Shown piece by piece: positions 16,270 to 51,153 of a stretch of DNA of 51,441 nt (the first letter of the stretch is position 1; each line of letters begins with the position of its first letter). The stretch comes from a virus, in IMG/VR virus record IMGVR_UViG_3300022074_000068, positions 1 to 51,441 of that record; one strand, given 5' to 3'. The translations under genes were made by a program, and so were the position numbers. The notes under the pieces were generated by a model, which was not told the DNA's origin, made no database searches, and worked only from the letters and a program-made list of their open reading frames with translations.

Positions 16270-16842
16270 ATGGGTCTTTGGCAAGATTTAACAGGTTGGA
16301 TTGATCCTACAGTGAATTGGGTTGCAGAAGCACTAGATTATACTGCTGAAGCTAAAAGCACATTAGATGAGTATGGTGTTACAGTTCCGGGAGATCTTAT
16401 GACTGCAGGAGATTACCTAGTAGATGACATTAAAGATGTAGTTGGATTTGCAAAAAAAGGTTACAAAGTGTATAGTGAAGTAGCAGGTCTTTACGATAAA
16501 ACAACAGGCAAAAGAACAGATAAACAGTATTTTAGTCAACCATCATTTAGAAAGCAAGCTAGATCAGTTGGAGACTTAACATCTGGATCTAGAGCTTACA
16601 CACGAACAAGTCCTGCGACAGGTAATCCTGTAAATATAGGGTATGCCAATCCTGACGTTAGATCATATCTAACACAATTAGCACAAAGTTCGTATAATCA
16701 ACAAATGAATAATATGTTTTCAAGTTATCTTGTATCACCAACCAAAGTAACAGGACAAAAAACAATAGGTATAGGATCGACTACTGTTAAAGGCGTAGCA
16801 AAGAAAACAAAAACATCTAGAAAATCAAGAGGTTTAGAATAA
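16270..16842 (+). CDS. Putative virion protein, unknown
   Basis: A 190-residue protein beginning MGLWQDLTGWIDPTVNWVAEAL, an amphipathic, Trp-containing helix that could touch membrane. The middle is mixed, and the basic C-terminal tail reads KGVAKKTKTSRKSRG. There is a good ribosome site (AAAGGAG) and the stop overlaps the next ATG. Lying inside the internal protein block, it is probably a minor virion component; no family recognised. Confidence 0.6.
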   Translation: MGLWQDLTGWIDPTVNWVAEALDYTAEAKSTLDEYGVTVPGDLMTAGDYLVDDIKDVVGFAKKGYKVYSEVAGLYDKTTGKRTDKQYFSQPSFRKQARSVGDLTSGSRAYTRTSPATGNPVNIGYANPDVRSYLTQLAQSSYNQQMNNMFSSYLVSPTKVTGQKTIGIGSTTVKGVAKKTKTSRKSRGLE

Positions 16843-17408
16843 TGATTGAGGGTATGAATGAAGAGATGCAACCCATGAGAGGTTCAGTAGAAGCAAAAGA
16901 TGAATTTGCTGTAGCACCTCCCGGTCATTCTCTTACCACAGATAACACACGATGGTCGTGGGGTAATCCACCTGTAGATGTAGATCCAGAGATAGTTTTA
17001 ACTAGAGCTATAAGTTCACTCAAAAAACCAAAAGTGCGTAACGAGATGATAAAACTACTTATTGGTGGCGTGTCAGTAGAAACTATGGTTGAGGGTTATA
17101 TACTGCAAGGTTTTCATGATGGTAGATTTACACCTGATGTTGGATTACTCATAAAACCTGCTTTAGCTACCGTTGTAGCAGGAATGGCAGAAGAAGATGG
17201 AGTGCCGTACCGTATGTTTGAAAATAAAGATGCAGGTGAAGAAGATACAATGGATGATAAAACATTCTTTAAGATGATTAAAACAAACAACCCACGTATG
17301 TTTGCATTTATAAAAGAAAATGTAAATCAGTCTATACGTGAAGGTAACAAACCTCTTGAAGAAAACTTTTTAAACGCAGAATTAAAAACGGAAGAAGATG
17401 AACAATGA
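16842..17408 (+). CDS. Conserved marine-phage virion-block protein
   Basis: A 188-residue acidic protein with APPGHSLTTDN-RW-WG-PP near the N-terminus and a helical core (EIVLTRAISSLKKPKVRNEMIKLLIGGVSVETMVEGYILQGF, then DVGLLIKPALATVVAGMAEEDG). I recognise this layout from hypothetical proteins of marine podoviruses and myoviruses, always near structural genes. The last codons overlap the next start by 4 bp (ATGA). Role unknown. Confidence 0.72.
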   Translation: MIEGMNEEMQPMRGSVEAKDEFAVAPPGHSLTTDNTRWSWGNPPVDVDPEIVLTRAISSLKKPKVRNEMIKLLIGGVSVETMVEGYILQGFHDGRFTPDVGLLIKPALATVVAGMAEEDGVPYRMFENKDAGEEDTMDDKTFFKMIKTNNPRMFAFIKENVNQSIREGNKPLEENFLNAELKTEEDEQ

Positions 17409-19679: not shown

Positions 19680-22600
19680 ATGGCAGAAGTGCAAACACAA
19701 ATAAAAGACGATACCGAAGAAGATAAAGTTGAAGAAAACAAAGTTGTGAAAGACAATGTAGAAGAGAACAAAGTCATCACTCCTTCTGTTAATGATAATT
19801 CAACTATGGATATTGTTGTCAATCCTACAGCTAATTTAGGCGATCCTAAAATAAAAAAAATTGTTAAAGAGGATATAGTCACACAAGGAGAAGAGGGCAA
19901 GATAACCTATGATAAGATTATTTCAGGAGAAGTAGATCAAATAGGTGGTCAAAAAATAGACTTTGTTACAAAGACATTAGCACAAGAAGGTCATGTTCCC
20001 TCTATTATAAAAATAGAAAAGTTAGCAAAGGATGCTCCTAAACCAACTGACGTTAAGATAGGTGGTATTAGGAAAGGCGAAGTCATGTCTTTCACAGGAT
20101 TATCCGAAGATCAAGTTACAGACTTAACCCAGTATGCAACAGGTAGATTAAGAGTTCTTAATGCTTTACAAGCAGAAAATCCTCAAACTGGCGAATCTCG
20201 TGTTCAAGATAAAAGAATACAACAGTTGCTCGTTGATTATTATAGCACTGGTCAATTCTACACAGAAATAGCTAAAAGATTAGCAGAGTCTGGTAGAGGT
20301 TTAACTTTGACACCTGTCCTTGCAAACATGGCGTATCATCTTGTGGGTGCTGCCACGGATGCAGTAGATTTACCTGACAATGCACAAAGACTTTTTGGAT
20401 TTACAGTTGAAGATGAGACATTTGCTGACTCGTGGAACAAACGATCTCCTGCAATGGCAGAGTTTTATCAACAGTATAAGGCAATGATTGAAGAAGATCT
20501 AGGAGCGTCTGGATTAACAACAGCTTCTGCAATGAATGATGATCTAAAAAAGATATACGTAGAGGTGTATGGTCAAGAAGAGTACGATAAAAGATATAAA
20601 ATAACAAATCCTGTAACAGGTAAAAAAGTAGAACTTCCTATAATAAGTGAAGAGCTAGGTCAAGATCTTTTAAAAATAGCGTTTGATGAATTACCTATAG
20701 AGCAACGTGTAGCTACAATGATATTAGAAAATGTAGGTATAGGTGGTATTATAGCTAAAGCAAGATTGTACAATGGTAAGTTTGATCTTAAAAAAGCTCA
20801 AGATCTAAGAAAAAATGAGCCAGAAGAATATGGTGGTTTAACTAATATTCAAATCCTAAGAAAGTCAAATATAAAAAATGCGTCAAATGGATTTACTAAA
20901 GCTTGGTACAAAACAACAGCTAACATAGGCAGACGATTTAAAATGAGAGGTGCTGTTGATTCAGCACAACATAATTTGGATAGAGACAATGCTGTTCGTT
21001 TACTAGATAAACAGATAGGAGATGTTCAAAAAGAATTAAATGGATCAAAATTAGATACGTTTAATAAAAACAGACTTCTTAATAAGTTAGAAAATTTAGA
21101 AACACAAAGAACTAAATTTGTTTTTCCCTTTCCTCGTAAAACATTTATGACTGGTGTATTTAAAGATGAATTAGTTATAGGACTCGGACAAGGAGCAGGA
21201 TATGAAATTAGTAGATTTTATGGCTTTAATACAGATGCAGGTGAAGTAATAGGTGCTTTGTCTACGGCAACAGGAGTTCCACAATTTTTAATTAAAAAAT
21301 CACTTGTAGGAAAATACGCACCTTTAACACTTGCAAATAATTGGACTGGAGGTGCATTAACAAACTTTGCATCAACTATAGAGATGTTACCTTTTATAAA
21401 GAAAGGTACATTTATTGATCGCAGATTTGAAACTCTAGAGGATGAACTTGGCGTTCCGTTAACAATAGAGCAAAAAGTAGCTGTAGAAGAAACATCAAGA
21501 ATTATAAAAAACTTGAATCCTGAACAAAGAGAGATGATATGGAACTCAATAAATGAGTATCAACGAGTAAGAGATAGAATTGTAAATTCTTTTAAAGATC
21601 CTGAAAAAAGAAAAGAAGCTAGAAGATTGTTTCAATTAAGTTTTGCTCACATATCAGGATTAGCACCATTACAAGCCTTACAAGCAAAAGCTTCAGGTAA
21701 ATTAAGTGCAACAGGTAGAAACCTTGAAGATGCTATAGGGTATCAATTACAAGCAGAAAATACAGTTGCTGCGGCCACAGCTGCAATAAATAATCTTAGA
21801 AGAATGGTAAGAGATGACTTAACTGTTGATACTGAAGATAGAGAAGTTTTAACAACGTTTGTAGAAAACTTTCAAAAAGCATCAGACAATTATACTTTAA
21901 TGGTCAACGAAAATAAAATAGACTATATGAAGCAACTTCAAGAATTAAAAAATAATATAATAAAAGATCCAACTAAAAGTTTACCTTCCAACTTAATATC
22001 ATCACTGGCAGAGATGGAAGTAAAAATAACTGCAGGTGCAGCTAACAATCTTGAGAAAAAACGTGATATATATATTGAAACAACTAAAGATGTATTTAAA
22101 CAACTAAATCTTAGAGGTAAAAATTTACAACTTCTAAGGGGTACACCTGAATACAAATTTCAATTAGGTAAATACATAGAGGAAGTATACGATGCTCGTG
22201 ACGAAAGTATTTATCTTCAAAGTAAACTTTTGTATCAACCCATAGATGCTGATGGTGATCTCATTAATATATCAAATGTAGTTGCAGACTTAATGGGTAG
22301 AGAAAAAAGGTTATCTGGAAAAGAATTAAAACAATTTTTTTCAGCAGAAGGAGATTTATTCAGAAGTAGATCTGGTAGATATCTTAGACAATCCATGAAC
22401 TCTATGGCAAAAAGAAATCTTAAAAAAGAATTAGGTTTAGAAGATGATGATTTTACTCAACTACAAGCGTACCATGCTAATCCTGAACTATTGAAAGGTG
22501 CTGACAAAGAGGACTATTTAGTAGATCCTAGTCCGTTAAACATAGCTTTTTTATACATGCAAAAGTCAAAAGGAGATGCAGAAAAAGCTAGATTTTCACC

Positions 22601-27600: not shown

Positions 27601-27947
27601 TATTCTTTACCAAAATCAACTTTAATTACATTATCTTTGTATTTTATTGTTTTACCTTCTTCATCAAGCACTTCACCAAACATTCGTTTAGATACATAGT
27701 TGTATGCAAGTTCTGATGTACCAAAGTTAAATACTTCTTCGCTCTTACCCATAAGTAATCCAACAAGACCCTCATGTATTATTGATCCTACAGAGTGATC
27801 GATCTCAGACTTATATTCTTTCTCTGTCGTATCATAAGCACTCATCTTGAATTTATCATCACCAACATCCGTAAGTATAATATAGTAGTGACCCTTTTGT
27901 AAATTCATTTTCTTTGCAAATTCTATTGCATCTTTTTCACTTTCCAT
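27600..27947 (-). CDS. Hypothetical protein in replication operon
   Basis: 115 residues when started at ATG 27947, which lies 11 bp inside the end of the endonuclease I gene. The open frame reaches 28016, but that portion is more likely an out-of-frame reading of the upstream gene. Alternating segments (YYIILTDVGDDKFKMSAYDTTEKEY, then HEGLVGLLMGK) suggest a small alpha/beta fold. A gene function could not be recognised. Confidence 0.6.
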   Translation of the reverse strand: MESEKDAIEFAKKMNLQKGHYYIILTDVGDDKFKMSAYDTTEKEYKSEIDHSVGSIIHEGLVGLLMGKSEEVFNFGTSELAYNYVSKRMFGEVLDEEGKTIKYKDNVIKVDFGKE

Positions 27948-28311
27948 TTTTGTACCACTCCACAGGTATTGACTTCTCTGCCCATCTGTAATCGTGCTTG
28001 TTGCACCAATCAGCATAGGTTGTTTTACTACCCTTGTATATTTTGTTACGTGCGTTCATAAAAACAAAACGTATATCCAAATCTTTGTGTTGTTGTTTTA
28101 CCAAAGCCATCTTCACTCTATCTGCCTTATCAAAATGTCCTTTTGCTTCTACATAAATACCACTCTCGACTATATAGAAATCAGGAGTGTACGTTCTTGG
28201 CTTGGGTATGTAAAGAAACTTCTTTGATTCATACTCAAACTTAACTTTGTTTTGAGCCAAACCTTTTGCAAGATGCAACTCAAAGCGTGATCTGTATTTC
28301 ATTCTGTTCAT
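27937..28311 (-). CDS. Endonuclease I, Holliday junction resolvase (T7 gp3-like)
   Basis: 124 residues from the ATG at 28311, which overlaps the upstream stop as ATGA. The longer open frame to 28425 reads the neighbour out of frame. Motifs in order: RSRFE with Glu11, YTPDFYI with Asp44, and GIYVEAKG with Glu55 and Lys57, matching T7 endonuclease I E20, D55, E65, K67. FVFMNARNKIYKGSKTTYADWC follows, also typical. The enzyme resolves branched replication intermediates before packaging and degrades host DNA in T7. Confidence 0.92.
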   Translation of the reverse strand: MNRMKYRSRFELHLAKGLAQNKVKFEYESKKFLYIPKPRTYTPDFYIVESGIYVEAKGHFDKADRVKMALVKQQHKDLDIRFVFMNARNKIYKGSKTTYADWCNKHDYRWAEKSIPVEWYKNGK

Positions 28312-28694
28312 ATGTTCTTTTTCAACCCTAAAGACTGCAGTCGTTTTTTTACATATCCTGCCAGTTTGGGGGATTGTTTTTCTAGTATAAGAAGTTCTTC
28401 TGTTAATCCAAGTATCGGAAGGCATATTACTTTACCCTGACTGCTGACGTAGTTTATTGTTTGAAATTGATTTTCTATTTTTACTATATCTCTTTTTTCT
28501 GTGTGGGAGGTGAGAGTTCCGTTGTCTGAAAAGTTTTCACGAAGAGTAAGGGGAATACCTCTTTCATGTTGACGTAAATGAACAACGTCTCTCCCACCAC
28601 CTGTCTCCACATGGGAGTCTATATAAACGTGGTACAAGTCCTCGTTTAATCCTAAAAGATCTATATGAAATTGATGGACATAAATAATTGCCAT
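28308..28694 (-). CDS. Hypothetical protein, unknown
   Basis: A 128-residue protein with a beta-rich N-terminal half (AIIYVHQFHIDLLGL, LYHVYIDSHVETGGGRDVVHLR) and a C-terminal charged helix (ELLILEKQSPKLAGYVKKRLQSLG). A GGGRDVVHLRQHERGIPLTLREN stretch looks like a functional loop, but I do not recognise a family. It starts with a TAATG overlap on the Cas4-like nuclease stop and ends with an ATGA overlap on endonuclease I, so it is translated in the recombination/repair chain. Confidence 0.6.
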   Translation of the reverse strand: MAIIYVHQFHIDLLGLNEDLYHVYIDSHVETGGGRDVVHLRQHERGIPLTLRENFSDNGTLTSHTEKRDIVKIENQFQTINYVSSQGKVICLPILGLTEELLILEKQSPKLAGYVKKRLQSLGLKKNI

Positions 28695-30467: not shown

Positions 30468-31997
30468 TTACAGATCTACTTCAGATAAGTCAAGCCAATT
30501 CTTTCCTATTTTTAATTCGATGCCTACAGGCATATCGTATTCTATGCCATACCTACGTTTCGTCTCACTTGGCAAACACAACATTGCTTCAGATAATACA
30601 TCAATACACTGTTGCTTTTCATTCGGATGAACATCAAGAACAATAGAATCGTGTACTGTGTTGCAAATAACCGACTGCATTTTTAGTTCTCTCATCTGTC
30701 TATCTAGCTCCACCAACGCAATAGGCAATAGATCAGCCGTAGCGAACCCCTGAACAGGGTAATTACAAATAGCAGTACGATTGGTAGCTGTACCCCATTC
30801 TGTCCATCTAGCGTCAGGAAAACAGTATTCTCTTCCTGACGGTAATTTTATAATTTTTGTAGTCACAGCCTGCTTCTCAAGTTCTTTGTGCCACTCACTT
30901 ACCTGTTCATACTTCTCTTTAAATCTTCTGTAGTACGCTTGCTGACTTTGTGTACCACTGACACCACCGTACAATGGTTTGAATGTGTGTGCTTTTGCTT
31001 CCTGTCTAGAGCAGCCGATGATAGATGCAGTATAGCTGTGAACATCTGTGCCTTTCTTTACATCATCATATACCTGATTATCTTTAGAAAGAAAGCCTGC
31101 CACCCTGAACTCCAACTGTGAGTAATCACCCTCAAGTATGAAGCCATCATCAAATCTACTTTCGACAACCTTACGTATGGCAAACGTAGAACCACGTGGC
31201 ATGTTTTGAAAGTTAGGATTACGACTAGACAACCTACCTGTTGCTGTTACACATTGCATAAACTCAGGATGAATAAAATTGTAGTCATCCACATTGTTTT
31301 TCATACCCTCTACAAAGGTAGACAGATAGGTACGCAAAGCATTGTATCGAACATAAGCTTCACAAAACTCACGTGCATCACCACTTAGTTCAGATAGCCT
31401 ATCTTCTAGGGTTACCTTGTCTGTCTTGAAACCTGCTGATGCTGTATCTCTTGGTGTACGAGGTATGATTTTAAAACCTGCTACCTCGCCTGTAGATGTA
31501 TAGACTACACCTTTACCCTCACAAACTTTACATATTCGTTTAGCTTTACCAACACTACCGTCTTTCTTGAGAGGTGTTATCCTACCTGATCCACGACAAG
31601 TTTCACATTGACGACCGATTGTTTTGTAAACTATGTCAGTCATACGCCTGACGTACTGTACAAAGTCTTTGTTCTTCATACGTGTACGCATCTTAGGTTT
31701 GATTGTATTGCCACGCATCTCATGTCCAAGATTAAATGTAAGCGACCAAAGAGATTTGTCTTTTACTTTTCGTGAGTAAAGCAACACACTCTTGTCATCA
31801 GGACTTGCAAGATTGATAGGAGTATCTCCCATTGCGTTCTTGGCTAGTCTGTTCAGCTTAGTTTCCAACATGGTCATCTCATCCATGTACTGCTTTTCAA
31901 TATCTTCTAAGGTATCTGTGTTTATCTTTAGTCCGTTGTGTTCTATCCTAGATAGCGTGTTCGTCATCTCGAACGACAGTTTCAGTGTTTGTTTCAT
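30468..31997 (-). CDS. DNA polymerase (PolA family) with half DnaJ zinc finger
   Basis: A 509-residue polymerase lacking the exonuclease domain, which is a separate gene upstream. Motif A is EGDYSQLEFR (Asp291); motif B is RQEAKAHTFKPLYGG, with Arg331, Lys335, Phe339 (equivalent to E. coli Phe762) and Tyr343; motif C is VHDSIVLD (His449, Asp450). Between the N-terminal helix and the palm sit C131-x2-C134-x-G-x-G and C156-x2-C159-x-G-x-G: one zinc site, half of a DnaJ Cys-rich domain. Such an insertion is known from HMO-2011. The ATG has GAGGAA at 5-6 bp. Confidence 0.93.
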   Translation of the reverse strand: MKQTLKLSFEMTNTLSRIEHNGLKINTDTLEDIEKQYMDEMTMLETKLNRLAKNAMGDTPINLASPDDKSVLLYSRKVKDKSLWSLTFNLGHEMRGNTIKPKMRTRMKNKDFVQYVRRMTDIVYKTIGRQCETCRGSGRITPLKKDGSVGKAKRICKVCEGKGVVYTSTGEVAGFKIIPRTPRDTASAGFKTDKVTLEDRLSELSGDAREFCEAYVRYNALRTYLSTFVEGMKNNVDDYNFIHPEFMQCVTATGRLSSRNPNFQNMPRGSTFAIRKVVESRFDDGFILEGDYSQLEFRVAGFLSKDNQVYDDVKKGTDVHSYTASIIGCSRQEAKAHTFKPLYGGVSGTQSQQAYYRRFKEKYEQVSEWHKELEKQAVTTKIIKLPSGREYCFPDARWTEWGTATNRTAICNYPVQGFATADLLPIALVELDRQMRELKMQSVICNTVHDSIVLDVHPNEKQQCIDVLSEAMLCLPSETKRRYGIEYDMPVGIELKIGKNWLDLSEVDL

Positions 31998-32544
31998 ATA
32001 ATTCCTCGAATGTTAAGCCAAAGGCTTCTAGTTGTTTTAATGCAACCTGTTCAGTTGCGACTACATCGGCAATGCCGTATTCTTCTACTATCTCTGCAGG
32101 TATGTCATAGAATGTCTTACCATCTTTGAGATACGGTTTAACCAAGTCTACTTCTTTTTGAGTAACATCGTATCGTTTTGCAAGAGACTCAAGTGATAAA
32201 GACCAACGCCTACCTTTTGATCTTAGGTATTCTGCTACCATAGTATCATACAGAACACCATCAAAAGTAAAACCACATGATCGCAGCCATGTTATGTCAA
32301 ACTTTATATTTTGTCCAACAAGAACATCTGCTCTGTCTAAATCTTTTTGTATCAAGTTTACAATATCTGACTCATAATTGTACTCGTTGTCTTTGTGATA
32401 GAAAAACTTGTAGTTAACGTGATCGTTTAACAACCACTTCCAACCCACTGATACTAATCGGTTATTGAAGTAGGGTAGTGCAGTAGTGCCACCCCCCTCT
32501 TTGTCTTGGTGTGTAGTTTCTACATCTAAAGTTAACACGTTCAT
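31948..32544 (-). CDS. DnaQ-like 3'-5' exonuclease, split proofreading subunit
   Basis: 198 residues from ATG 32544, the A of the helicase stop (TAATG); GGGGG lies about 12 bp upstream. DEDDy motifs: LTLDVETT (Exo I, Asp and Glu), GQNIKFDITWL (Exo II Asp) and YGIADVVATEQ (Exo III Tyr and Asp). This is the proofreading domain that normally forms the N-terminal half of PolA-type phage polymerases. It ends 50 bp inside the polymerase gene in another frame, so here the two functions are on separate chains that probably assemble. Confidence 0.9.
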   Translation of the reverse strand: MNVLTLDVETTHQDKEGGGTTALPYFNNRLVSVGWKWLLNDHVNYKFFYHKDNEYNYESDIVNLIQKDLDRADVLVGQNIKFDITWLRSCGFTFDGVLYDTMVAEYLRSKGRRWSLSLESLAKRYDVTQKEVDLVKPYLKDGKTFYDIPAEIVEEYGIADVVATEQVALKQLEAFGLTFEELYETNTETVVRDDEHAI

Positions 32545-33770
32545 TAATAATATATCCCCCTTGAAATATCTATTTGAGCATTGATCATACCATGCCACCC
32601 ATTGATCTTGTTCTTAGATATACAGATGTGTCGCACTATGTTATCTATCTCACTTGATCCTGTCTTGCCTATACCTATAATGATGTCAGCTTCACCTGCC
32701 TTACCTGTCTTGGAATTGTCAAGCATAGCATAGTCAATAAACTGTCTGTCGTGTGCATCGTAACTTGCTTGGCTTACTGCCCACACAAGACACAGATTTC
32801 GTTTAGCTATCTCTCTTGCAGACACATAAGTTTCCTTCAAACGTTCATCTCCACGATTGTACTCACCACGTATTCTAAATTTGTCTAGCTGATCACAAAA
32901 CATGACATCAGGTTTGTTCAGCTTGGCATACTCATCTACCTCTTCTACAGATGTACCTACCGAATCCATAATAGTCAGATACGGTTCTATCTCTGTCTTG
33001 TATCTATCAAGGAGACTAAACCTCTGTGCTACCATATCTTCCTTTGTCAGTTCAAAGTATGATTGAATGATACGTAACTTGATTCGCTTGGCAGGTTCTT
33101 CGTTTGCCCAATACACAACCTGAAACCCTTGACGTATGTACGATGATGCAAGAAAGCAACAGAACGTTGTCTTACCCACTTCAGGTCTTGCAAACAAGAT
33201 ACCTAAGTTGCCACGATCTAAACCTTTGATGTTCTCATTTATTAAGTTGAATGTGAATGGGAAATCATTGTCACCTGCTTCTTCAGATAACAGTTCGTTC
33301 AGATCTTTGTCAACAATGGTGTAGGTGGTCTTGTCACCTATCCTGCCATCATCTACACTTTCGATGAGTTTCTTTAACTCACCAAACTCATCACTGTCAC
33401 CAGTGAATATGTCTAATGCTTTCTCTCCTATCTGCCTTGCTTTGTCTCGCAGCCACAGGTTATTTACAATGTCAGTGTGTAACTCATCGCTTTCTTTTGG
33501 TGCAACGAGTTGTACAATCATATCCTGTACACGATTCCTAGCTGAATCAGGCATGGCAGGATTACGGTCATTAAATATTGTGGACAGTTCAGGAACAGAC
33601 AGACTACGGTCATACTTGGTATGTGAATAGACTATCGTATCAAATATATCTTTGAGTTCATTGTCGAACATAGTCCGATCAATTTTATTTTTTACTTTAT
33701 TGAAGAAATCAATATTGAGACAAAAACCTATTACTTGTCTGTCAATTGATATAACGCCTGATGAAGTCAT
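32544..33770 (-). CDS. Replicative DNA helicase, DnaB/T7 gp4 C-terminal type
   Basis: A 408-residue ring helicase. The N-terminal 140 residues are helical, DnaB-N-like (VIGFCLNIDFFNKV..., DELHTDIVNNLWLRDK). The RecA-like motor has Walker A ARPEVGKTT (Lys200, Thr201), YWANEEP (catalytic Glu region near 224) and Walker B PDVMFCDQLD (Asp293), followed by VWAVSQASYDA (motif H3-like Gln). It unwinds DNA ahead of the polymerase. The ATG lies 29 bp inside the primase gene behind a strong AAGGGGA site, so primase and helicase, fused in T7 gp4, are separate here. Confidence 0.92.
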   Translation of the reverse strand: MTSSGVISIDRQVIGFCLNIDFFNKVKNKIDRTMFDNELKDIFDTIVYSHTKYDRSLSVPELSTIFNDRNPAMPDSARNRVQDMIVQLVAPKESDELHTDIVNNLWLRDKARQIGEKALDIFTGDSDEFGELKKLIESVDDGRIGDKTTYTIVDKDLNELLSEEAGDNDFPFTFNLINENIKGLDRGNLGILFARPEVGKTTFCCFLASSYIRQGFQVVYWANEEPAKRIKLRIIQSYFELTKEDMVAQRFSLLDRYKTEIEPYLTIMDSVGTSVEEVDEYAKLNKPDVMFCDQLDKFRIRGEYNRGDERLKETYVSAREIAKRNLCLVWAVSQASYDAHDRQFIDYAMLDNSKTGKAGEADIIIGIGKTGSSEIDNIVRHICISKNKINGWHGMINAQIDISRGIYY

Positions 33771-41804: not shown

Positions 41805-42051
41805 GTTAGTTATACAGTTAACTAAATGACAAAAAGAATTACATGGGCGTATGCGTGCGAAGTTAACCTTTTGTTGTTGTGGTGGGTGTTGTGGTGGGTG
41901 GTTTGTTAGCCTGTGGTATTGATTGGTTTTATCATTGATATGATCGTAAAGATTTCTGCCGTGTACGCACGCAAGAGCCACCCGGGGCCCCACCGTATTT
42001 GCATGCAATGTCGGCATATTTTTACTAGAATGAGTTAGTTGTACAGGTAAC
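41805..42051 (+). repeat. 18-bp imperfect direct repeat flanking the non-coding core
   Basis: 41805-41822 and 42034-42051 agree at 16 of 18 positions (GTTAGTT, A or G, TACAG, T or G, TAAC). Each copy begins with GTTA and ends with TAAC, so its outer ends are inverted. A third, weaker match (12 of 14) covers the -10 of the promoter at 35440. Confidence 0.7.
41877..41900 (+). repeat. Tandem 12-bp GT-rich repeat
   Basis: Two exact copies of TTGTGGTGGGTG (41877-41888 and 41889-41900) inside a G/T-only tract from about 41869 to 41906. Four or more GGG/GG runs could allow a G-quadruplex on the plus strand. Confidence 0.8.
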
Positions 42052-42304: not shown

Positions 42305-42526
42305 ATGTTTCAAGCATTTGTACTCATATGCCTTATAGGTATGCCCACTGAAAATAGATATTGTGAAGAATTAGCCGACACAAGAGGACCATACATGCTG
42401 CACGACAAGTGTCTTGCACGAGTATATGAGATAAAAGAGGAATTGCACCTCTACAAACCTAACATGCAAGCACGAGCATACCGTTGTGATGAATTTACTC
42501 CCCAAACAGAAAAGCAAAGCACGTGA
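42305..42526 (+). CDS. Small secreted/membrane-anchored protein, 3 Cys
   Basis: A 73-residue protein with a hydrophobic N-terminus (FQAFVLICLIGMP) and then a polar domain with Cys in RYCEELAD, HDKCLARV and YRCDEF. It resembles in plan the small protein at 5067. Similar short proteins occur next to terminase genes in marine phages. A periplasmic, disulfide-bonded role is inferred. Ribosome site GAAAGAAAG. Its 3' end overlaps the terminase small subunit by about 40 bp. Confidence 0.65.
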   Translation: MFQAFVLICLIGMPTENRYCEELADTRGPYMLHDKCLARVYEIKEELHLYKPNMQARAYRCDEFTPQTEKQST

Positions 42527-42896
42527 AATAAGTCCTCAACAGGAGCAATTTCTAGAAGTACTCTTTGAAAATGGTGGAAACGTAACTGATGCAGCCCTCA
42601 AAGCAGGATATGCAAAGGGATCAGTGACGTGGCTACGCACATCTTTAGCAGATGAGATCATAAACCGTACAAAGAACATACTATCTATGAACGCATTTAA
42701 GGCAGCTACACGTCTTGTAACTACTATAGACAACCCAATACCTGAAAGAGGGGATGACCTACGCTTCAGGGCGGCAGAATCGCTGTTAAACAGGGTAGGA
42801 CTGGGTAAACAGGAAACAACCAACGTAAATGTACAGGCAGTACACGGAATAGTTCTGTTGCCGCCTAAGAAAGACGTTGTAATCGATGGAAACTAA
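42489..42896 (+). CDS. Terminase small subunit
   Basis: 135 residues from ATG 42489 (a GTG lies one codon upstream). An N-terminal helix-turn-helix region (SPQQEQFLEVLFENGGNVTDAALKAGYAKGSVTWL) is followed by a helical part (NAFKAATRLVTTIDNPIPERGDDLRFRAAESLLNRVGLGKQE) and an extended C-terminus (GIVLLPPKKDVVIDGN). This layout is typical of DNA-recognising small terminase subunits. The gene overlaps the large subunit start by 11 bp. It may recognise a site in the non-coding region just upstream. Confidence 0.85.
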   Translation: MNLLPKQKSKAREISPQQEQFLEVLFENGGNVTDAALKAGYAKGSVTWLRTSLADEIINRTKNILSMNAFKAATRLVTTIDNPIPERGDDLRFRAAESLLNRVGLGKQETTNVNVQAVHGIVLLPPKKDVVIDGN

Positions 42897-44568
42897 GAAG
42901 CGTGGTCGCCCAAAGAAAGACCCTAACGCACCCAAACAAAGATACAACTATTCATCTGCAATCAAAGCTCGTAAACAGACACAACGTAGACTTACTGAAG
43001 CCAAAAAACGAGCAACAAAGATAACGAGACAAGCAGAAAGTAAAAGAAGATATGCCAGAAAACTCGAAGAAAAAATCACCAAAGTCGACAAAGCTCTCAA
43101 TCAAAAAGAGACTACTGTTATCGACAAAACGGATCTGCAACAGCTTCCAGACGTTGTTGAGCAACTGGTGGATGGGCGTGAAATTATTTTTCAGCCGAAT
43201 GAAGGACCTCAAGAAGAGTTTCTTTCCTCAAGTGAAAGAGACGTTCTTTACGGTGGTTCGGCAGGGGGTGGCAAAAGCTTTGCCTTACTTGCAGACCCCT
43301 TACGGTATTGCCATAATAGCAACCATCGTGGGCTTCTTCTTAGGCGTACTCTGGATGAGCTAACAGAACTTATTGACAAGTCACGTCAGCTATATCCCAA
43401 AGCTTTCCCCGGTGCAAAGTTCCGGGAGTCAAAGTCAACGTGGCACTTTCCATCAGGTGCAACAATATGGTTTACCTATCTTGACAAAGACAAAGACGTA
43501 ACAAGATTTCAGGGTCAGTCGTTTAACTGGATAGGCATAGATGAGATAACCCAATATCCCTCGCCTTATGTTTGGGATTATCTCCGTTCACGACTAAGGG
43601 CAACTGATCCTGAACTGCAAAAACATCTGTACATGCGTTGTACAGCAAACCCCGGAGGAGTCGGAGGTTGGTGGGTCAAGAAGATGTATATCGATCCATC
43701 TGAACACAACTCGACTTTTCCTGCAATAGACATCGAAACAGGCAAAGCTTTCTTGTGGCCGCAAGGACATGAAAAAGCAGGTGAGCCACTCTTCTATCGT
43801 AGGTTTATACCTGCACGTTTGACTGACAATCCATACTTGTTGGCTGACGGACAATACGAAGCGATGCTACGATCCCTACCTGAAGTTGAACGTAAGCGAC
43901 TTCTTGAAGGCGACTGGGAAGTAACGGAAGGTGCAGCCTTTCCTGAATTTAGTAGAAGTAAACATGTGGTCCCGAATTTTGACCTTCCACCGAATTTCCC
44001 CAGAATACGTGCCGCTGACTATGGGTATGCGAGTCCTTCTTGTGTCCTGTGGGGTGCTATTGACTGGGATAACAATATATGGGTTTATCGTGAACTGTAT
44101 GTAAAACAGTTGACAGCAGAGCAGTTAGCAGATAGAATACTACAAGTAGAACAAGAAGATCCGACCCCCCACTATACTGTACTTGACTCATCGTGTTGGA
44201 ACAAGACAGGCTTTGGTCCTTCCATAGCAGAGACAATGATGAGATGTGGAGTGCGTTGGATGCCATCGGACAGAAACCGACTTCAAGGCAAAATGGAAAT
44301 ACATCGTAGGCTTGCCGATGACCCACGAACAGATGAACCTAGATTACGAGTATTTCCGAACTGTGTCAACCTTATCAAACAACTATCAGGTATACCTCTT
44401 AGCAAAACAAATGCAGAGGATGTGGACACAAAGGCAGAAGATCACGCATACGATGCACTACGATATATGCTAATGACAAGGATGACAGGATATGTGTCGA
44501 TTCATAAAACGCTTGGTGGTATTAAGAATCAAGTCTATCAAATGCAAGACCAAACATTTGGGTATTAA
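42886..44568 (+). CDS. Terminase large subunit (ATPase/nuclease)
   Basis: A 560-residue packaging motor. Walker A is GGSAGGGKS (123-131); Walker B is WIGIDE (Asp219, catalytic Glu220); CTANPGG (about 252-258) is the coupling motif. In the nuclease domain Asp378 lies in RAADYG, another Asp in TVLDSS (about 436) and the last in DHAYDALRY (about 522). Compared with the usual start of this family near its ATPase domain, the first about 90 residues are an extra Lys/Arg-rich helical extension (KARKQTQRRLTEAKKRATKI). Confidence 0.95.
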   Translation: METKKRGRPKKDPNAPKQRYNYSSAIKARKQTQRRLTEAKKRATKITRQAESKRRYARKLEEKITKVDKALNQKETTVIDKTDLQQLPDVVEQLVDGREIIFQPNEGPQEEFLSSSERDVLYGGSAGGGKSFALLADPLRYCHNSNHRGLLLRRTLDELTELIDKSRQLYPKAFPGAKFRESKSTWHFPSGATIWFTYLDKDKDVTRFQGQSFNWIGIDEITQYPSPYVWDYLRSRLRATDPELQKHLYMRCTANPGGVGGWWVKKMYIDPSEHNSTFPAIDIETGKAFLWPQGHEKAGEPLFYRRFIPARLTDNPYLLADGQYEAMLRSLPEVERKRLLEGDWEVTEGAAFPEFSRSKHVVPNFDLPPNFPRIRAADYGYASPSCVLWGAIDWDNNIWVYRELYVKQLTAEQLADRILQVEQEDPTPHYTVLDSSCWNKTGFGPSIAETMMRCGVRWMPSDRNRLQGKMEIHRRLADDPRTDEPRLRVFPNCVNLIKQLSGIPLSKTNAEDVDTKAEDHAYDALRYMLMTRMTGYVSIHKTLGGIKNQVYQMQDQTFGY

Positions 44569-44571
44569 TAA

Positions 44572-46290
44572 ATGGCAGAAGATATAAAACTAGATAAAAA
44601 TCTCACTATCAATCAAGTTCTTCAGTTGACTGGGCGTGGTCAAACTGGAACGTTAAAACAAGCTATACAAAACGCAGGCTTGTCTCTTAATGATAAATTT
44701 TCTAGGATGCGTGAAACTGCGTTTTTAAAAAAATTAAATGAGGTGGGTGTTGAAGGTCATTTTACAGAATTAAATGCTGTAGAAAACTCTTTACGTGAGA
44801 TGTTTGATATAAGTGATGATGCAGGAGAGTTTCCACTAAAGAAAAAAACATTTGGTGCAAAAAGTAAATCAAGAAGTAAAACTTTAAACTTAAAAAAAGC
44901 AGACCAAGCACGTAAAGCTATAAAAGTTGAACTACCTTCTATAAAAGAAATAAATCAAAGTATACATACTGCAACTCAAAGACTAATAGCACAAGGAGAC
45001 ACTGCTACTAAAAAGCAAAAACTTAAAGACGCTACAAAATTTTATGAAGCTGCAGCTCTTCTTCAAATAAAACATCATAGTGGATTAAGAACAACAGAGA
45101 TAGTTAATTTAACAACTGGTAAACCTGCAGAAGGTGCTAAATACGGAACTGTGGTCAGAGGTTCAGACACTCTTGTTCAAATAAGTAATAAAGGTGATAG
45201 AACTAACTTTAGACTGTCATCTATGCCGATGGGTATACTACAAGATTTAGCAGAACGAAACGCATCTAACGATCTAAACAAATCTGCAAAATTATTTAAA
45301 ACAGGAAAAGGAACTCTTGAAAGCACAATAAACGAAGCTGTAAACGATGTGTTTAAACAAAATGAATTGATAATACGAGATCAAGACACAGGATTATCTA
45401 AAAAATTTACTGTTGGATTATTACGTAAAAATGTTTTTAGTGCCATAGACGATGAGTTTGGCACAGGTGTGGCTAACAGAGTACTAGGTCATTCTATCAA
45501 AGGAGATGTAGGATTAACTCACTACAAAGTAACAAGAACTTCACGAGCTAAACTTGATATTAATACTTTGGCTGCTGAAAGATTCAACAGCACATACTTA
45601 GCTGATATAGGACAGTCAAGTCCAAAAGCAGTTATGTCATCGTACAAGTTTGGAGAAAACTTCTTTCCAACTGAGCCTGTTGCAAAATTAGTAACACCTA
45701 GTCCAGTTGAAGAAGCAGCACAAAAAACAGGATTAAATTTAGAAACAAAGTCAGTTCAGGTAGGTGCTAACGTAGATAATCTTCTAAAAGATACTAACAA
45801 GAATATCGGACAGCTAGAAAAACAATTAGATAAGTTACAAGGACTTCAAACTCAAGTAGACGATTTAAAGAAAGATTCTAAAACAAAAAAAAGTTTATTA
45901 GAAACACCCTCATCTTCAGATGACATAAGCCAATCTATAAAAGATAAATTAGGAAAATTTGGTATTTTTCTTGGTAAGAAATTACCGTTGGTTGCTGCAG
46001 GTATTGTATATGCAGAACAAAAAGAAGCAGGTGCATCAACTGCAACAGCTTTAGGATACGCAGGTAGTGAGTTCCTTCCTGTATCAGCTTCTGATGTAGA
46101 CACGGCAGGTGCATTTGTAACAAAGGCACGTCAAGAGGGATTACCTGAAGCTATAGGTCTTGATACTGAAAAACAAAAACAAATGAATATCACAAGAAAA
46201 CAGAGATTAGCTGATAGAGTTAGACAAAACACATCAGTTACACCCCCCCTCGAAGAAGGGTTCATAAACCAAAACCAAATGGGAGAATAA
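44572..46290 (+). CDS. Tyrosine-recombinase-like protein with C-terminal hydrophobic domain
   Basis: A 572-residue protein between terminase and portal. Residues about 120-325 fit a tyrosine recombinase: core-binding-like helices, box I HHSGLRTTEIVNL (Arg173), ISNKGDR (Lys207), box II FTVGLLRKNVFSAI (Arg285, but Gly282 where His is expected), LGHSI (His307) and THYKV (Tyr318). Then come a coiled coil (about 390-425, LLKDTNKNIGQLEKQLDKLQGL) and a Gly/Ala-rich hydrophobic segment (about 463-510, KKLPLVAAGIVYAEQKEAGAS). It may be packaged or ejected. A non-catalytic derivative is also possible. Confidence 0.7.
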   Translation: MAEDIKLDKNLTINQVLQLTGRGQTGTLKQAIQNAGLSLNDKFSRMRETAFLKKLNEVGVEGHFTELNAVENSLREMFDISDDAGEFPLKKKTFGAKSKSRSKTLNLKKADQARKAIKVELPSIKEINQSIHTATQRLIAQGDTATKKQKLKDATKFYEAAALLQIKHHSGLRTTEIVNLTTGKPAEGAKYGTVVRGSDTLVQISNKGDRTNFRLSSMPMGILQDLAERNASNDLNKSAKLFKTGKGTLESTINEAVNDVFKQNELIIRDQDTGLSKKFTVGLLRKNVFSAIDDEFGTGVANRVLGHSIKGDVGLTHYKVTRTSRAKLDINTLAAERFNSTYLADIGQSSPKAVMSSYKFGENFFPTEPVAKLVTPSPVEEAAQKTGLNLETKSVQVGANVDNLLKDTNKNIGQLEKQLDKLQGLQTQVDDLKKDSKTKKSLLETPSSSDDISQSIKDKLGKFGIFLGKKLPLVAAGIVYAEQKEAGASTATALGYAGSEFLPVSASDVDTAGAFVTKARQEGLPEAIGLDTEKQKQMNITRKQRLADRVRQNTSVTPPLEEGFINQNQMGE

Positions 46291-46291
46291 A

Positions 46292-46510
46292 ATGGCAGAC
46301 AATCTTAATCAAGGTGCAGCCTATATAATGGGATCAGACAAAGTATCAGTTGATGATGCTCAAGGATCTAACAGCTTATATAGAGAAGGTCTTGAGTTTA
46401 CTATGGAAGTAAATCAAGATGCGTTGCAAGTTGACATGCCAAAGAAGCAAACAAAACCTACTGTTGAAGCTTCTTTATTTGCAATGGCTGACGACAAAAA
46501 CTACTTCTAA
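46292..46510 (+). CDS. Small acidic protein next to portal, unknown
   Basis: A 72-residue acidic protein (NQGAAYIMGSDKVSVDDAQGSNSLYREGLEF, ending SLFAMADDKNYF). It lies 1 bp after the recombinase-like gene and 15 bp before the portal, in a position often held by small head-assembly proteins. No family recognised. Few basic residues; probably partly unstructured. Confidence 0.6.
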   Translation: MADNLNQGAAYIMGSDKVSVDDAQGSNSLYREGLEFTMEVNQDALQVDMPKKQTKPTVEASLFAMADDKNYF

Positions 46511-46525
46511 ATTATAGGATAAATC

Positions 46526-48649
46526 ATGGCTGATGAGAGTTTTCTTCAACCTGATGACGATACCCCTGTATCTATTGAAAATCCACAAGATCAGATGCCC
46601 GGATTGGCAGGGTACGTTAAATCTAAGTTTGAAGATGCAGAGAACGGCAGACGTTCTCACGAACTAAAATGGTTACAGTCTTATAAAAACTTTAAAGGTA
46701 TTTACGATTCTACAACTCAGTATCGTGATTCCGAAAGATCAAAAGTATTTATCAAGATAACCAAAACTAAAGTTCTTGCTGCGTATGGACAAATAGTGGA
46801 TATACTATTTAGTAATAAAAAGTTTCCACTTGTTGTAGAACCTACTCCTATGCCTGAAGGCATCGAGGAGTTTGCTCACATGAAAACTCCATTAGATGAA
46901 GCTGAACAGCCAGTTGATCCGTTTGGCTTTGAAGGCGATGGTAGAGAGTTATCTCCCGGAGCCATGTCGGCTAGTGAACCACACAAGTTAGGAACATACG
47001 GTAAAGATTTTCCTGACATGTTGGCATCAGGACCTGCGAAGATGGGTGAGCCACAAGTTAAGCCTGCACAGAAGATGGCTATGAATATGGAGAAATGTAT
47101 TCATGATCAACTTATGGACAGTAACGCAGTCAACGTATTTCGTAAAGCTATATTTGAATCAGCACTACTTGGAACAGGCATAGTCAAAGGTCCGTTAAAC
47201 TTTTATAAACGTGTTCACAACTGGCAGATGAATCCTGACAGTGGACAAAAAGAATACAGTCCTTATGAAAAGATAATGCCACGTATTGAGTATGTATCTC
47301 TGTGGGATTTTCACCCTGATCCATCTGCAACAAGTATTGAAGATTGTGAATACGTAATACAAAGACATCGTATGAATCGCCAACAACTTCGTGGTCTGAT
47401 TAAACGACCATACTTTGATGCGTCAGCTATTGAAGAGTGTCTTGCAAAAGGACCTAACTACGAAGATAAATACTACGAAGATACCATACGTGAAGATGAT
47501 ACTGAACCTTACTATCAAGAAAACAGATACGAAGTTCTGGAGTATTGGGGTGTCATAGATAAAAAACTTGCAGATGAAGTTGGTATGGAAAATGCCAATG
47601 ATATGTCAGAGTTTGATCAGTTGCAAGTCAATGTATGGGTATGTGGTGGTATGGTAATTAGGTGTGTTGCAAATCCATTTACACCTGCACGATTACCTTT
47701 CCAAGCTTTTCCATTTGAGATAGATCCTTATCAAATATGGGGTGTCGGTGTTGCCGAGAATATGGAATACTCACAAAAGTTAATGAATGGTCACTATCGT
47801 ATGGCTATTGATAACTTAGCACTTGCAGGTAATCTTGTATTTGATGTAGACGAAGCAAGCTTAGTTCCCGGTCAAAACATGGATATATTCCCCGGTAAGA
47901 TATTTAGACGACAGTCAGGTGTAACAGGCACAGCAATCAACGGACTAAAGTTTCCAAACACTGCACCAGAAAACATACAGATGTATCAGATATCAAGACA
48001 ACTCGCTGATGAAGATACAGGTATACCATCTATACTACACGGACAAACAGGTGTAACAGGAACTGGTAGAACCGCTGCAGGACTATCCATGTTGATGGGT
48101 TCAGCAGGACTGGCAATGAAAACAGTTATAAAGAATATAGATGATCATTTACTAAAGCCACTAGGCGAATCTTTGTTTCAATGGAACATGCAGTTTAATG
48201 ATGATTTGGGGGAGATAAAAGGGGATCTAGAAATAAAACCTCGTGGGGTTGCAGCAGTTATGCAAAAAGAAGTGCGTACACAAAGATTAACTGCTTTGCT
48301 TCAAACCGTATCTAACCCAATGCTTGCACCTTTTATTAAGATACCTAACTTGATAAGAGAACTTGCAATAGCACAGGATATTGATCCTGATACGTTAGTC
48401 AATGATGCCAACGAAGCACAACTATACGCTGAAATGTTAAAAGGAATGATGGCTAATGTACAACAAGGAGCAGGCGAGGATGCTGTCGCCACTAATCAAC
48501 AGCAAGGAATGGGTCAACCTAGTGGAGTACCTCAACAACCTGAAGGAACTGACAGTCAAGGGTCTGGTAACGGCACAATCGGAGTCGGAGCTACGCCAAC
48601 TGCAGGGGAAACTGGCTTTACTGGAAATGCTCCTAGAGTTGAAGAATAA
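46526..48649 (+). CDS. Portal protein
   Basis: A 707-residue protein placed after the terminase genes. Family-like features: a GRRSHELKWLQSYKNFKGIYDS helix, SKVFIKITKTKVLAAYGQIVDILF, MAMNMEKCIHDQLMDSN, VSLWDFHPDPSATSIEDCEYVIQRHRM, YEVLEYWGVID and NGHYRMAIDNLALAGNLVF, an order typical of large podovirus portals. The dodecamer forms the DNA entry vertex and the adaptor binding site. The last about 60 residues (GMGQPSGVPQQPEGTDSQGSG) are low complexity, and the same DNA encodes another protein in a different frame. Confidence 0.9.
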   Translation: MADESFLQPDDDTPVSIENPQDQMPGLAGYVKSKFEDAENGRRSHELKWLQSYKNFKGIYDSTTQYRDSERSKVFIKITKTKVLAAYGQIVDILFSNKKFPLVVEPTPMPEGIEEFAHMKTPLDEAEQPVDPFGFEGDGRELSPGAMSASEPHKLGTYGKDFPDMLASGPAKMGEPQVKPAQKMAMNMEKCIHDQLMDSNAVNVFRKAIFESALLGTGIVKGPLNFYKRVHNWQMNPDSGQKEYSPYEKIMPRIEYVSLWDFHPDPSATSIEDCEYVIQRHRMNRQQLRGLIKRPYFDASAIEECLAKGPNYEDKYYEDTIREDDTEPYYQENRYEVLEYWGVIDKKLADEVGMENANDMSEFDQLQVNVWVCGGMVIRCVANPFTPARLPFQAFPFEIDPYQIWGVGVAENMEYSQKLMNGHYRMAIDNLALAGNLVFDVDEASLVPGQNMDIFPGKIFRRQSGVTGTAINGLKFPNTAPENIQMYQISRQLADEDTGIPSILHGQTGVTGTGRTAAGLSMLMGSAGLAMKTVIKNIDDHLLKPLGESLFQWNMQFNDDLGEIKGDLEIKPRGVAAVMQKEVRTQRLTALLQTVSNPMLAPFIKIPNLIRELAIAQDIDPDTLVNDANEAQLYAEMLKGMMANVQQGAGEDAVATNQQQGMGQPSGVPQQPEGTDSQGSGNGTIGVGATPTAGETGFTGNAPRVEE

Positions 48650-48677
48650 TCACGAAAGAATAAATAAGAATGTCTGA
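48480..48677 (+). CDS. Small helical protein overlapping the portal 3' end
   Basis: A 65-residue protein read in another frame of the portal gene for 170 bp and continuing 28 bp beyond its stop. The ATG at 48480 follows AGGAG at 9 bp; an in-frame ATG at 48456 adds eight residues. The sequence (SPLINSKEWVNLVEYLNNLKELTVKGLVTAQSESELRQLQGKLALLEMLLELK) is a compact helical domain that I remember as a separate small protein after portal genes in marine phages. This explains why the portal tail is low complexity: the second frame carries the constraint. Confidence 0.72.
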   Translation: MLSPLINSKEWVNLVEYLNNLKELTVKGLVTAQSESELRQLQGKLALLEMLLELKNNHERINKNV

Positions 48678-51153
48678 ATTTTTTGACTTTGCTTTAGATT
48701 TTGGTCTTACTTACTTTGAACCACCTTCAGAGAAGAAAGATGTATTGTCAAGGGAACGTTACAGCAAAGGCAATGTAGATTTCTACGAGCAAAGTTTAGA
48801 TGACACTTTAGGAACTGGTATTGATCTTAAATTTAGAGACGATGATGATGAAGATGATAAAGAAGATGATATAAATGTAAATGTTGTAGGCGATTCAGGA
48901 GAAGATCAATCAACTTTATCATTTTCTGAAATGGAATCTTCATTTGATAAAGATCAGATTAGTTCTTCAAATATATATGATATGAGTATAGGAACTTATG
49001 GAGATGCACTATCAAAAGCAGGGTTTGCTGATAAGACACCATTCAATGTTTTTGGAAAAGACATATATACAGCAGGTGTACCAAAGACAACAGCAGAAGC
49101 AAAGGAAGGACTTGAAAAATTTATATCTAAAGAGGGTCTAGTAAACAAAGCTGTTAAAACAGGAGCTAGAATGTTAGGTATGAATCCTATGATAACAGGT
49201 GTGACTATGGGTTTTGCAAACGGTAAAACAGTAGAAGATCCATTAGGCAATCCAAGTTTTAGACCTAATCATTTTGCATTAGGTGCTATTCACGATATAA
49301 ATATGTCTATACAGTACGACAATATAAGTGCCATACAAGCATCGTTGCGAGATCCAAAAAGTAACATGAGGGGGTTTGCACAATATATAAACGGTCAACT
49401 TGTATCACGGGCCCCGGGAGAGTTTGCGTATAGTGGCACTGGTGCGATAGGACTAGATCAAGAAACATTAAACAGAATAGATGCTTTGTCAAAGGGTATC
49501 GTTCCAAGCACGTACGATTACAAAACTGAAACTGGAATAGCAGGAACACCTACAGGAAAAGGTGGTATGTATGACAGCAATGGCATGTATCATAATGTTT
49601 ATGGAACATATGGTATGGGGCCTCGTTCAGCATCTGAAGCTTTAGGTAAAAGTTCAGGACTTGGAACTGAAAAGATAGAAGAAATATTAGCTGAAGTAAG
49701 AGCAGATAAAAATAAAAATTTAAATGCAGAAATAGCAAAGGCACAAGCTGCAAATTTTGAGGAAGCACAAAGAAAACAAAGAGAAGAAGTAGAAAGACAG
49801 ATACGAGAGAAAGAAGCTGATACAAGTATTCCAACTGGACCTGATGATTATGGTGTTACAGATGATATATATTCAGCCTTTCAAGATACAACTCCTCAAG
49901 TAGACTACAGTTCTTATTATGATAATAATGATAATGATGACAGTCCGGGGGGAGGAAGTAGTTCTGGTGGTGATTCATCAGATATGGGATTCTCTACACG
50001 GTATGGTGGACAGATTGGTAAAGGTATGCAAGAGGGAGGTCCTGCAGGATTTATAGGCGGCCCACCAGAAAACTATAGCGATCAAACAACCATTGCAGAT
50101 GACATACCTCTAGAAGTCAAAGACGGTACTTTTGTTATAAATGCTCCTGCTGTAGAATATGCAGGATCAGATGATATTAGCGAAATGTTAACAAAAGCGT
50201 ACGAAAAAGCAGGACAAGCTATTGACAAATCTGGACAAAGGACTACAATACCAAGTAAGGAACAGATTAATATAATGATCTCACGAGGTGAGGTCGTAGT
50301 TCCTCCCCAAATAGCAAAGATCATAGGGTACGATCGTTTAGAGAAAATAAACAATCGTGGTAAAAAAGAAGTTACCAGACGACAGAAGCAAGGTAATCAA
50401 GAAAAGCCACAAGCTAGACAAGCTAACGAAGGTGGTATAATAACTATAGATGACATAAAATATAAAGAACGTTATCCAACTGCTGACAAAGCCAGAGAAG
50501 AAACAGAAAAAATATTACGATCTATACCCCTAGCTGACGCACTATCAATTATGATGTATGAAGAAGCAAATGTTTTAGGTGATAAAGGTATGGAGGGCGT
50601 AGCTCACGTATTTATGAATAGAGCAGATGCTGAAGGTTACAAAGATTTTGGTAAATCTTTAATTAATGAACTTTTAAAACGAACGTATACTAAAAACAGA
50701 ATATTTCAATTTAATGCTCTTGAACCAACTAAATTTAGAAATACTTTAAAAGTATTTAAAAAGAATAAAAATAAATATTTGAGCATACGTAATATAGCAG
50801 AAGAAGTCATCGCAGGTGCTAGAGAGGATTTTACAAAGGGAGCTTTGTTTTTTAAAAATCCTAAAGACTCTACTGAAAAAGGTTTTGCAAAAAGAGTAGC
50901 TTCTGGTGAACTTACTGAAACAGATAGAAGCAAAAAAGTGGGTGGTATTTTTCAACATATATATTACAGACCTAAAGACTTTGGCTTTGTTATGCAAGAA
51001 CCCTTGCCTGACACAGCTTCTGCACCAAAAGGTTTTATAGAAATACCAGAACGTAAAAGTCAAAATAGATTAAGAATACCTGAATCAAAGGGTGGATCAT
51101 TTCTGTTTAGAGGAAGTGATTATGAAAGAGGTGGAGCAACACCTGCTTTCTAA
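48670..51153 (+). CDS. Large virion protein with C-terminal SleB-like cell-wall hydrolase
   Basis: An 827-residue protein. The N-terminal half is acidic and unfamiliar. Residues about 455-560 hold a segment common in marine phage proteins (GFIGGPPENYSDQTTIADDIPLEV, FVINAPAVEYAGSDDI, ISRGEVVVPPQIAKIIG). Residues about 610-760 resemble cell-wall hydrolase SleB/Hydrolase_2: LADALSIMMYEEAN (likely catalytic Glu632), MEGVAHVFMNRADAEGY, FQFNAL. As part of the head-tail block it may locally open peptidoglycan during DNA entry. It overlaps the nested gene by 8 bp. Confidence 0.7.
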   Translation: MSEFFDFALDFGLTYFEPPSEKKDVLSRERYSKGNVDFYEQSLDDTLGTGIDLKFRDDDDEDDKEDDINVNVVGDSGEDQSTLSFSEMESSFDKDQISSSNIYDMSIGTYGDALSKAGFADKTPFNVFGKDIYTAGVPKTTAEAKEGLEKFISKEGLVNKAVKTGARMLGMNPMITGVTMGFANGKTVEDPLGNPSFRPNHFALGAIHDINMSIQYDNISAIQASLRDPKSNMRGFAQYINGQLVSRAPGEFAYSGTGAIGLDQETLNRIDALSKGIVPSTYDYKTETGIAGTPTGKGGMYDSNGMYHNVYGTYGMGPRSASEALGKSSGLGTEKIEEILAEVRADKNKNLNAEIAKAQAANFEEAQRKQREEVERQIREKEADTSIPTGPDDYGVTDDIYSAFQDTTPQVDYSSYYDNNDNDDSPGGGSSSGGDSSDMGFSTRYGGQIGKGMQEGGPAGFIGGPPENYSDQTTIADDIPLEVKDGTFVINAPAVEYAGSDDISEMLTKAYEKAGQAIDKSGQRTTIPSKEQINIMISRGEVVVPPQIAKIIGYDRLEKINNRGKKEVTRRQKQGNQEKPQARQANEGGIITIDDIKYKERYPTADKAREETEKILRSIPLADALSIMMYEEANVLGDKGMEGVAHVFMNRADAEGYKDFGKSLINELLKRTYTKNRIFQFNALEPTKFRNTLKVFKKNKNKYLSIRNIAEEVIAGAREDFTKGALFFKNPKDSTEKGFAKRVASGELTETDRSKKVGGIFQHIYYRPKDFGFVMQEPLPDTASAPKGFIEIPERKSQNRLRIPESKGGSFLFRGSDYERGGATPAF

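Follow-up and report, generated by a model that had tools for sequence, protein, structure and literature searches.

Here we describe a gene, located between the terminase large subunit and portal genes of an HMO-2011-like marine podovirus, which is assigned by computation to a family of tyrosine recombinases predicted to be catalytically complete. Dozens of highly divergent versions of the recombinase replace one another, even between phages that are otherwise almost the same. An established enzyme superfamily is here found in an unfamiliar setting, with unreported evolutionary behaviour; no description of a recombinase encoded between terL and portal was found in the open-access literature.

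Gene layout and phage identity

The window (the whole stretch of DNA that was analysed, 51,441 nucleotides) carries the recombinase gene in its packaging and head block, as the initial annotation had placed it, with terL upstream and a 72-aa ORF followed by the portal gene downstream. The recombinase ORF starts 3 bp past the terL stop codon, on the strand common to terS, terL and portal. The genes referred to below are the following:

42486..42896, + strand: terminase small subunit (terS)
42886..44568, + strand: terminase large subunit (terL)
44572..46290, + strand: tyrosine recombinase gene, 572 aa, between terL and portal
46292..46510, + strand: conserved 72-aa ORF, separating the recombinase from the portal
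46526..48649, + strand: portal protein of the SU10/HMO-2011 type, with an F-motif in its N-terminal MADESFLQP
48670..51153, + strand: 827-aa cell-wall-hydrolase protein, with GFI/SFL motifs at its C-terminus
16842..17408, + strand: 188-aa late protein with a C-terminal F-motif (ENFLN), preceding ORFs of 754 and 1565 aa

The source phage is an HMO-2011-like marine podovirus. Its portal has 44-51% identity with the corresponding proteins of HMO-2011, pelagiphage and roseophage isolates, and its replicative DNA polymerase contains two CxxC motifs resembling those described for the DnaJ-like domain in the HMO-2011-type group (PMC9038755). The polymerase (30468-32598, − strand) is encoded by two overlapping ORFs, one comprising the exonuclease part (31948-32598) and the other the polymerase part with both CxxC motifs (30468-31997), reflecting either a split gene or a frameshift. 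A ferredoxin-like auxiliary gene is present at 864-1541.

The 188-, 754- and 1565-aa ORFs are consecutive (16842-17408, 17405-19669 and 19680-24377), and their size order resembles that of the T7 ejection proteins gp14-15-16. Distant homologues of the 188-aa ORF are present in roseophages and pelagiphages. The 754- and 1565-aa ORFs have no match in Pfam or PHROG, and the 754-aa ORF has none in cultured phages. The hydrolase is strongly mosaic among relatives (in G001, segments of 90% identity stand beside others of 49%). The 72-aa ORF, whose function is unassigned, is also kept in many phages of a sister clade in which the position between terL and portal (hereafter the slot) is empty.

The recombinase family and its catalytic core

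Searched as a single sequence, the window recombinase gives no integrase match in Pfam, PHROG or the PDB, and tblastn against cultured phages gives no match. Relatives were therefore collected through the neighbouring genes. Scanning of IMG/VR with the portal and terL yielded 108 loci in which the slot is flanked by both genes (some of these loci share a contig), and all 108 hold a large slot ORF of 527-759 aa, amounting to 93 distinct proteins. Two scans seeded with the recombinase itself yielded 147 loci, 146 of which adjoin terL and/or portal (the other is truncated), and the family is therefore considered to be locked to the slot. In six reference relatives, cultured or circular, the slot contains no recombinase. 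In the sister clade (portal ∼62% identical) the slot is empty or contains other, small genes of 200-500 aa, many of which end in GGKVYS-type tails. The terL-portal gaps compared there include those of L156, L160 and L216: the slot is filled in L156 and empty in L216, the portals of the two being 100% identical.

Alignment of the 93 same-slot homologues gives a mean column identity of 13%, with R173 and R285 as the only invariant columns. The residues corresponding to the tyrosine recombinase catalytic set are as follows:

45088..45090, + strand: Arg173, box I (invariant in 93/93; 177/178 in a wider set)
45190..45192, + strand: Lys207, the beta-hairpin Lys (72 of the 93 are K and 16 are gaps; in the wider set, 150 of 178 are K and 22 are gaps)
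45424..45426, + strand: Arg285, box II (invariant in 93/93; 178/178 in the wider set)
45490..45492, + strand: His307 (H in 46 and R in 47 of the 93)
45523..45525, + strand: Tyr318, the presumed nucleophile (Tyr conserved downstream of H/R307)

These residues, and also Gly282, are found where the initial annotation had put them, and neither the two arginines nor the Tyr vary freely among homologues. A Tyr is located 9-21 residues after H/R307 in 93/93 proteins, compared with 45% of random 27-mers containing any Tyr, and it is present in 177 of the 178 proteins of the wider set. The sole exception for R173 and Tyr in this set is L228, a long member which is misaligned and whose motifs are canonical. 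The box II His (H-x-x-R), replaced by Gly in the window protein as noted earlier, is absent throughout the family, where position 282 is occupied by S, A, Y, K, G and others, with the canonical HNIRH seen in L228 only. Its loss is a family trait rather than a quirk of one copy. Substitutions of the box II His occur among accepted tyrosine recombinases, and hence are not counted as excluding membership.

Structure prediction using AlphaFold2 with the family alignment gave a mean pLDDT of 79.8, and values exceeding 90 for most of the core. The protein can be divided into the following parts:

44572..44931, + strand: N-terminal helical region, residues 1-120, the presumed DNA-clamp part (AlphaFold2 helices at 13-77)
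44932..45561, + strand: catalytic core region, residues 121-330 (PDB profile matches; Foldseek matches to lambda Int/Xer/Cre)
45562..45891, + strand: linker with a long helix/coiled coil, residues 331-440 (AlphaFold2 helix 397-439; swaps with the core)
45892..46287, + strand: C-terminal tail module, residues 441-572, with a hydrophobic Gly/Ala segment (swaps independently of the core)
46258..46266, + strand: C-terminal F-motif GFI, residues 563-565 (of the form [GSN]F[ILMVA], common in tails)

In a Foldseek search of the PDB with this model, tyrosine recombinases fill almost all of the top 30 places (best E 6.5e-3; TMt of 0.62 for the lambda Int core), and a search of BFVD returns phage integrases, a nudivirus integrase and VLF-1. 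The subtype with Arg307, modelled separately (mean pLDDT 67), gives matches to Tn1549 Int and XerH with E values near 3e-6. When the PDB was searched with a profile of subfamily A2 (52 members), the matches included XerC-like 4a8e (5e-14), Tn1549 Int (3e-11) and XerD (7e-10); the profiles of subfamilies A5 and A6, too narrow on their own, find no PDB match by sequence. Both PF00589 (best 1.5e-5) and the PHROG integrase profile (best 6.9e-11) match 24 of the 52 members, though not the window protein alone. Protelomerases (TelN/TelA) were considered and rejected: no telomere-resolvase model is present among the best 25 of the 56 families listed for the 52 members, and TelA is a weak fold match (Foldseek E 0.09).

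The conserved Arg/Arg/His-or-Arg/Tyr residues, the predicted fold and the PDB profile matches together lead us to conclude that the slot gene encodes a family of tyrosine recombinases with a complete predicted catalytic set; superfamily membership and conserved catalysis are established here by computation. The earlier description of the protein as tyrosine-recombinase-like, made from one sequence, is thus borne out by fold, profiles and residue conservation alike. The coiled coil also proposed for the C-terminal part corresponds to the AlphaFold2 helix at 397-439, while the proposed Gly/Ala segment (about 469-505) is modelled at low confidence.

The slot family shares with other tyrosine recombinases (PF00589; XerC/D, XerH, Tn1549 Int, lambda Int) the fold, the R-K-R-(H/R)-Y set and the box spacing. 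It differs from them in lacking the box II His, in having Arg in place of the third-position His in half of its members, in a C-terminal extension of ∼230 aa (containing the coiled coil, hydrophobic segment and F-motif), and in being encoded in a late packaging operon and hypervariable by cassette swap. The integrase of HMO-2011-type phages (CRP-3, HMO-2011) is likewise a tyrosine recombinase, from a related phage subfamily, but its gene is separate and shorter and precedes the replication module (PMC9038755, PMC6918029), whereas the slot gene lies between terL and portal. PF00589 recovers this int gene in the HMO-2011 record (302-aa frame).

Exchange of alleles and modules

Among 24 close relatives, terL is >94% identical in 196 pairs, and the recombinase core is <35% identical in 171 of these (median core identity 25%). 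Over all 4278 pairs of the 93 proteins, core identity shows no correlation with that of terL (Spearman 0.02). Some cores are also common to distant backbones, as in L006 and L018 (terL 80%, core 83% identical). At the DNA level, the window and its nearest relative L004 are 98% identical up to the start codon, ∼50% across the gene, and 95% from the stop codon; the swap starts at the start codon and can finish at the stop codon. Within types, the recombinase is under purifying selection, with a dN/dS of 0.04-0.26 for the N-terminal and core part.

The N-terminus, core and linker co-vary (r of 0.84-0.91; N-terminus/core 0.91, linker/core 0.84), and the tail (residues 441-572) varies separately (r of about 0.2-0.3). 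For example, the cores of L006 and L084 are 100% identical with tails at 43%, and the cores of L004 and L005 are 28% identical with tails at 82%. The protein thus consists of two independently exchanged modules, an N-terminal/catalytic/linker module, presumed to determine DNA specificity, and the tail. The core/tail junctions compared have no common crossover sequence, which suggests that homologous recombination, and not the enzyme, accounts for the exchange. The two most striking features, the allele hypervariability and the independently shuffled tail, were not visible to the initial annotation.

A pair of imperfect palindromes (GTTAsTTGTACArkTwAy, 41805-41822 and 42034-42051), ∼230 bp apart, is present in the long non-coding region upstream of terS, and the window contains seven matches to the palindrome at up to 3 mismatches, compared with 2.1 expected. 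The pair is conserved in close relatives and is the same whatever the recombinase type, and it was not detected in more distant relatives that also carry recombinases. The invariance across types and the non-detection in distant carriers make it unlikely to be the recombinase target. Possibly the palindromes are pac/TerS or regulator sites. No att or dif site co-varying with recombinase type was found upstream of terS.

Possible roles of the recombinase

The three-residue motif [GSN]F[ILMVA], defined from the recombinase tails themselves, occurs within the last 45 residues of 81% of the 93 tails, compared with 9% in shuffles, and the same motif is present at the portal N-terminus (MADESFLQP and variants) in 87/93. 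So as not to pick examples, the scan was extended to the 51 protein families that occur in three or more of 7 phage genomes. A terminal F-motif was found in only four of these families (background 6%), namely the portal (N-terminus, 7/7), the 188-aa ORF (C-terminus, 6/7, and 15/16 homologues in a wider set), the hydrolase at 48670-51153 (3/5) and the recombinase (2/4, the set being small). From its sharing by the recombinase, portal and late proteins, we infer that the F-motif may serve as a common peptide for docking to a partner in the head or procapsid; the recombinase would then be located in or on the particle. The recombinase is probably head- or virion-associated, and the virion link proposed earlier gains indirect support, at the level of sequence, from the late operon position and from the C-terminal motif common to the portal N-terminus.

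The reading which we tentatively favour is that of a late, probably head- or virion-associated active recombinase, obligatory in its phage lineage, with a DNA specificity under balancing selection. The active enzyme would be synthesized late, together with the packaging proteins, use its C-terminal Phe motif to dock at the procapsid or the region of the portal, and travel with the DNA into the next cell, where DNA would be cut and rejoined at a type-specific site via a 3'-phosphotyrosine intermediate. The alleles date far back, are stable within types and do not follow the phage phylogeny, a pattern of diversity suggesting that selection probably favours rare specificities. Rare specificities would be favoured, in all likelihood, because the enzyme acts on foreign DNA (the host replicon or a co-infecting relative) or distinguishes between such DNAs, or because it gives its own genome a private recombination site. 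It is conceivable, though rather unlikely, that the recombinase is a polymorphic effector delivered by the particle, with a swappable recombinase and a swappable head-docking tail, which targets specific DNA of rival phages, plasmids or host loci for attack or rearrangement under frequency-dependent selection, as in polymorphic toxin systems.

The main rival explanation is a phage integrase relocated to the late operon, with alleles targeting different host attB sites and attP in or near the gene, so that a swap of the ORF is a swap of the site. The catalytic set is complete, integrase exchange is a known route to a new integration site, and replacement of the entire ORF would be in keeping with an int-attP cassette that is self-contained. 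Related phages of the HMO-2011 type carry int at another genomic location, and tRNA-Met is the integration site of CRP-3 (PMC6918029, PMC9038755). The late operon is an unusual position for int, however, and the terL-recombinase-portal order is never interrupted in the loci examined. The initial annotation had seen no repressor, excisionase or tRNA-like att core, and none is found here either: PHROG scans of the window ORFs, many of which carry no annotation, recognise no repressor or excisionase, and PF00589 finds no second integrase in the window. The tRNA T-arm motif is not enriched in the recombinase genes (22 genes, compared with 23-29 in codon shuffles), and no embedded site of synonymous constraint is consistent between pairs. 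Inverted repeats near the gene are limited to a terminator-like one and short palindromes, and short-pattern scans and the sparse host genomes revealed no attP-like site beside the gene or prophage joined to host DNA.

A scan of 84,980 GTDB genomes with terL, of limited sensitivity (few degenerate peptides, hosts sparsely sampled), gave no relative, and the portal gave three short MAG contigs only. These look like phage contigs binned into MAGs. The integrase role is kept as an unlikely but real candidate because the GTDB scans rest on few degenerate peptides and the phage has no assigned host; the earlier view that the enzyme is not a classical integrase is tentatively favoured.

More doubtful is an assembly-stage resolvase or end-processing enzyme working with the terminase, comparable to baculovirus VLF-1. 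The location within the terS-terL-portal operon, the C-terminal motif common to the portal N-terminus, and the nudivirus VLF-1 and integrase returned by Foldseek are consistent with such a role. Hypervariability is, to our knowledge, not a known property of VLF-1. VLF-1 is a structural tyrosine recombinase needed for capsid production, and its Tyr mutant is non-infectious (PMC3649998). The likeness to baculovirus and nudivirus VLF-1 is nevertheless limited: VLF-1 is a structural component of the virion, whereas for the slot family virion association is probable, the viruses belong to an unrelated realm, and the structural similarity is weak. In addition, a housekeeping role leaves the dozens of swapped types on an unchanged terL unexplained, the window already encodes a Holliday-junction-type endonuclease (27937-28425), and related phages of the same portal family manage without the recombinase.

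It is improbable that the slot is a variable-gene hotspot (of the moron or metaviromic-island kind) in which integrase genes accumulate by chance. The empty slot or unrelated genes in the sister clade, including the L216/L156 difference, fit a hotspot. In the window's clade, however, the gene is always present, always homologous, not found elsewhere and under purifying selection, and a random hotspot was rejected for this clade (slot filled in 108/108 loci, 146/147 in the same slot). Least probable is a non-catalytic DNA-binding regulator with a tyrosine recombinase fold, as described for the prophage regulator MrpR/YopR of SPbeta, another phage protein of this fold with an unusual role: MrpR and YopR are among the Foldseek matches, the box II His is missing and residue 307 is Arg in half the family, but the slot family retains both arginines and the Tyr throughout, across extreme divergence, and such retention would be unexpected if the fold were non-catalytic.

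Returning to the favoured reading of a late, probably head- or virion-associated recombinase, we know of no phage that packages a site-specific recombinase; if virion-associated, the enzyme described here would be the first such case. The recombinase locus would then resemble a balanced polymorphism, in which marine phages with almost the same genome carry dozens of deep alleles, and would open a testable entry into the fate of phage DNA right after entry and the competition of co-infecting relatives. In addition, the family is a reservoir of recombinases, about 180 diverse proteins whose DNA specificities presumably differ. For the annotation of metagenomic phages, an 'integrase' match between terL and portal should not be taken as evidence of lysogeny.
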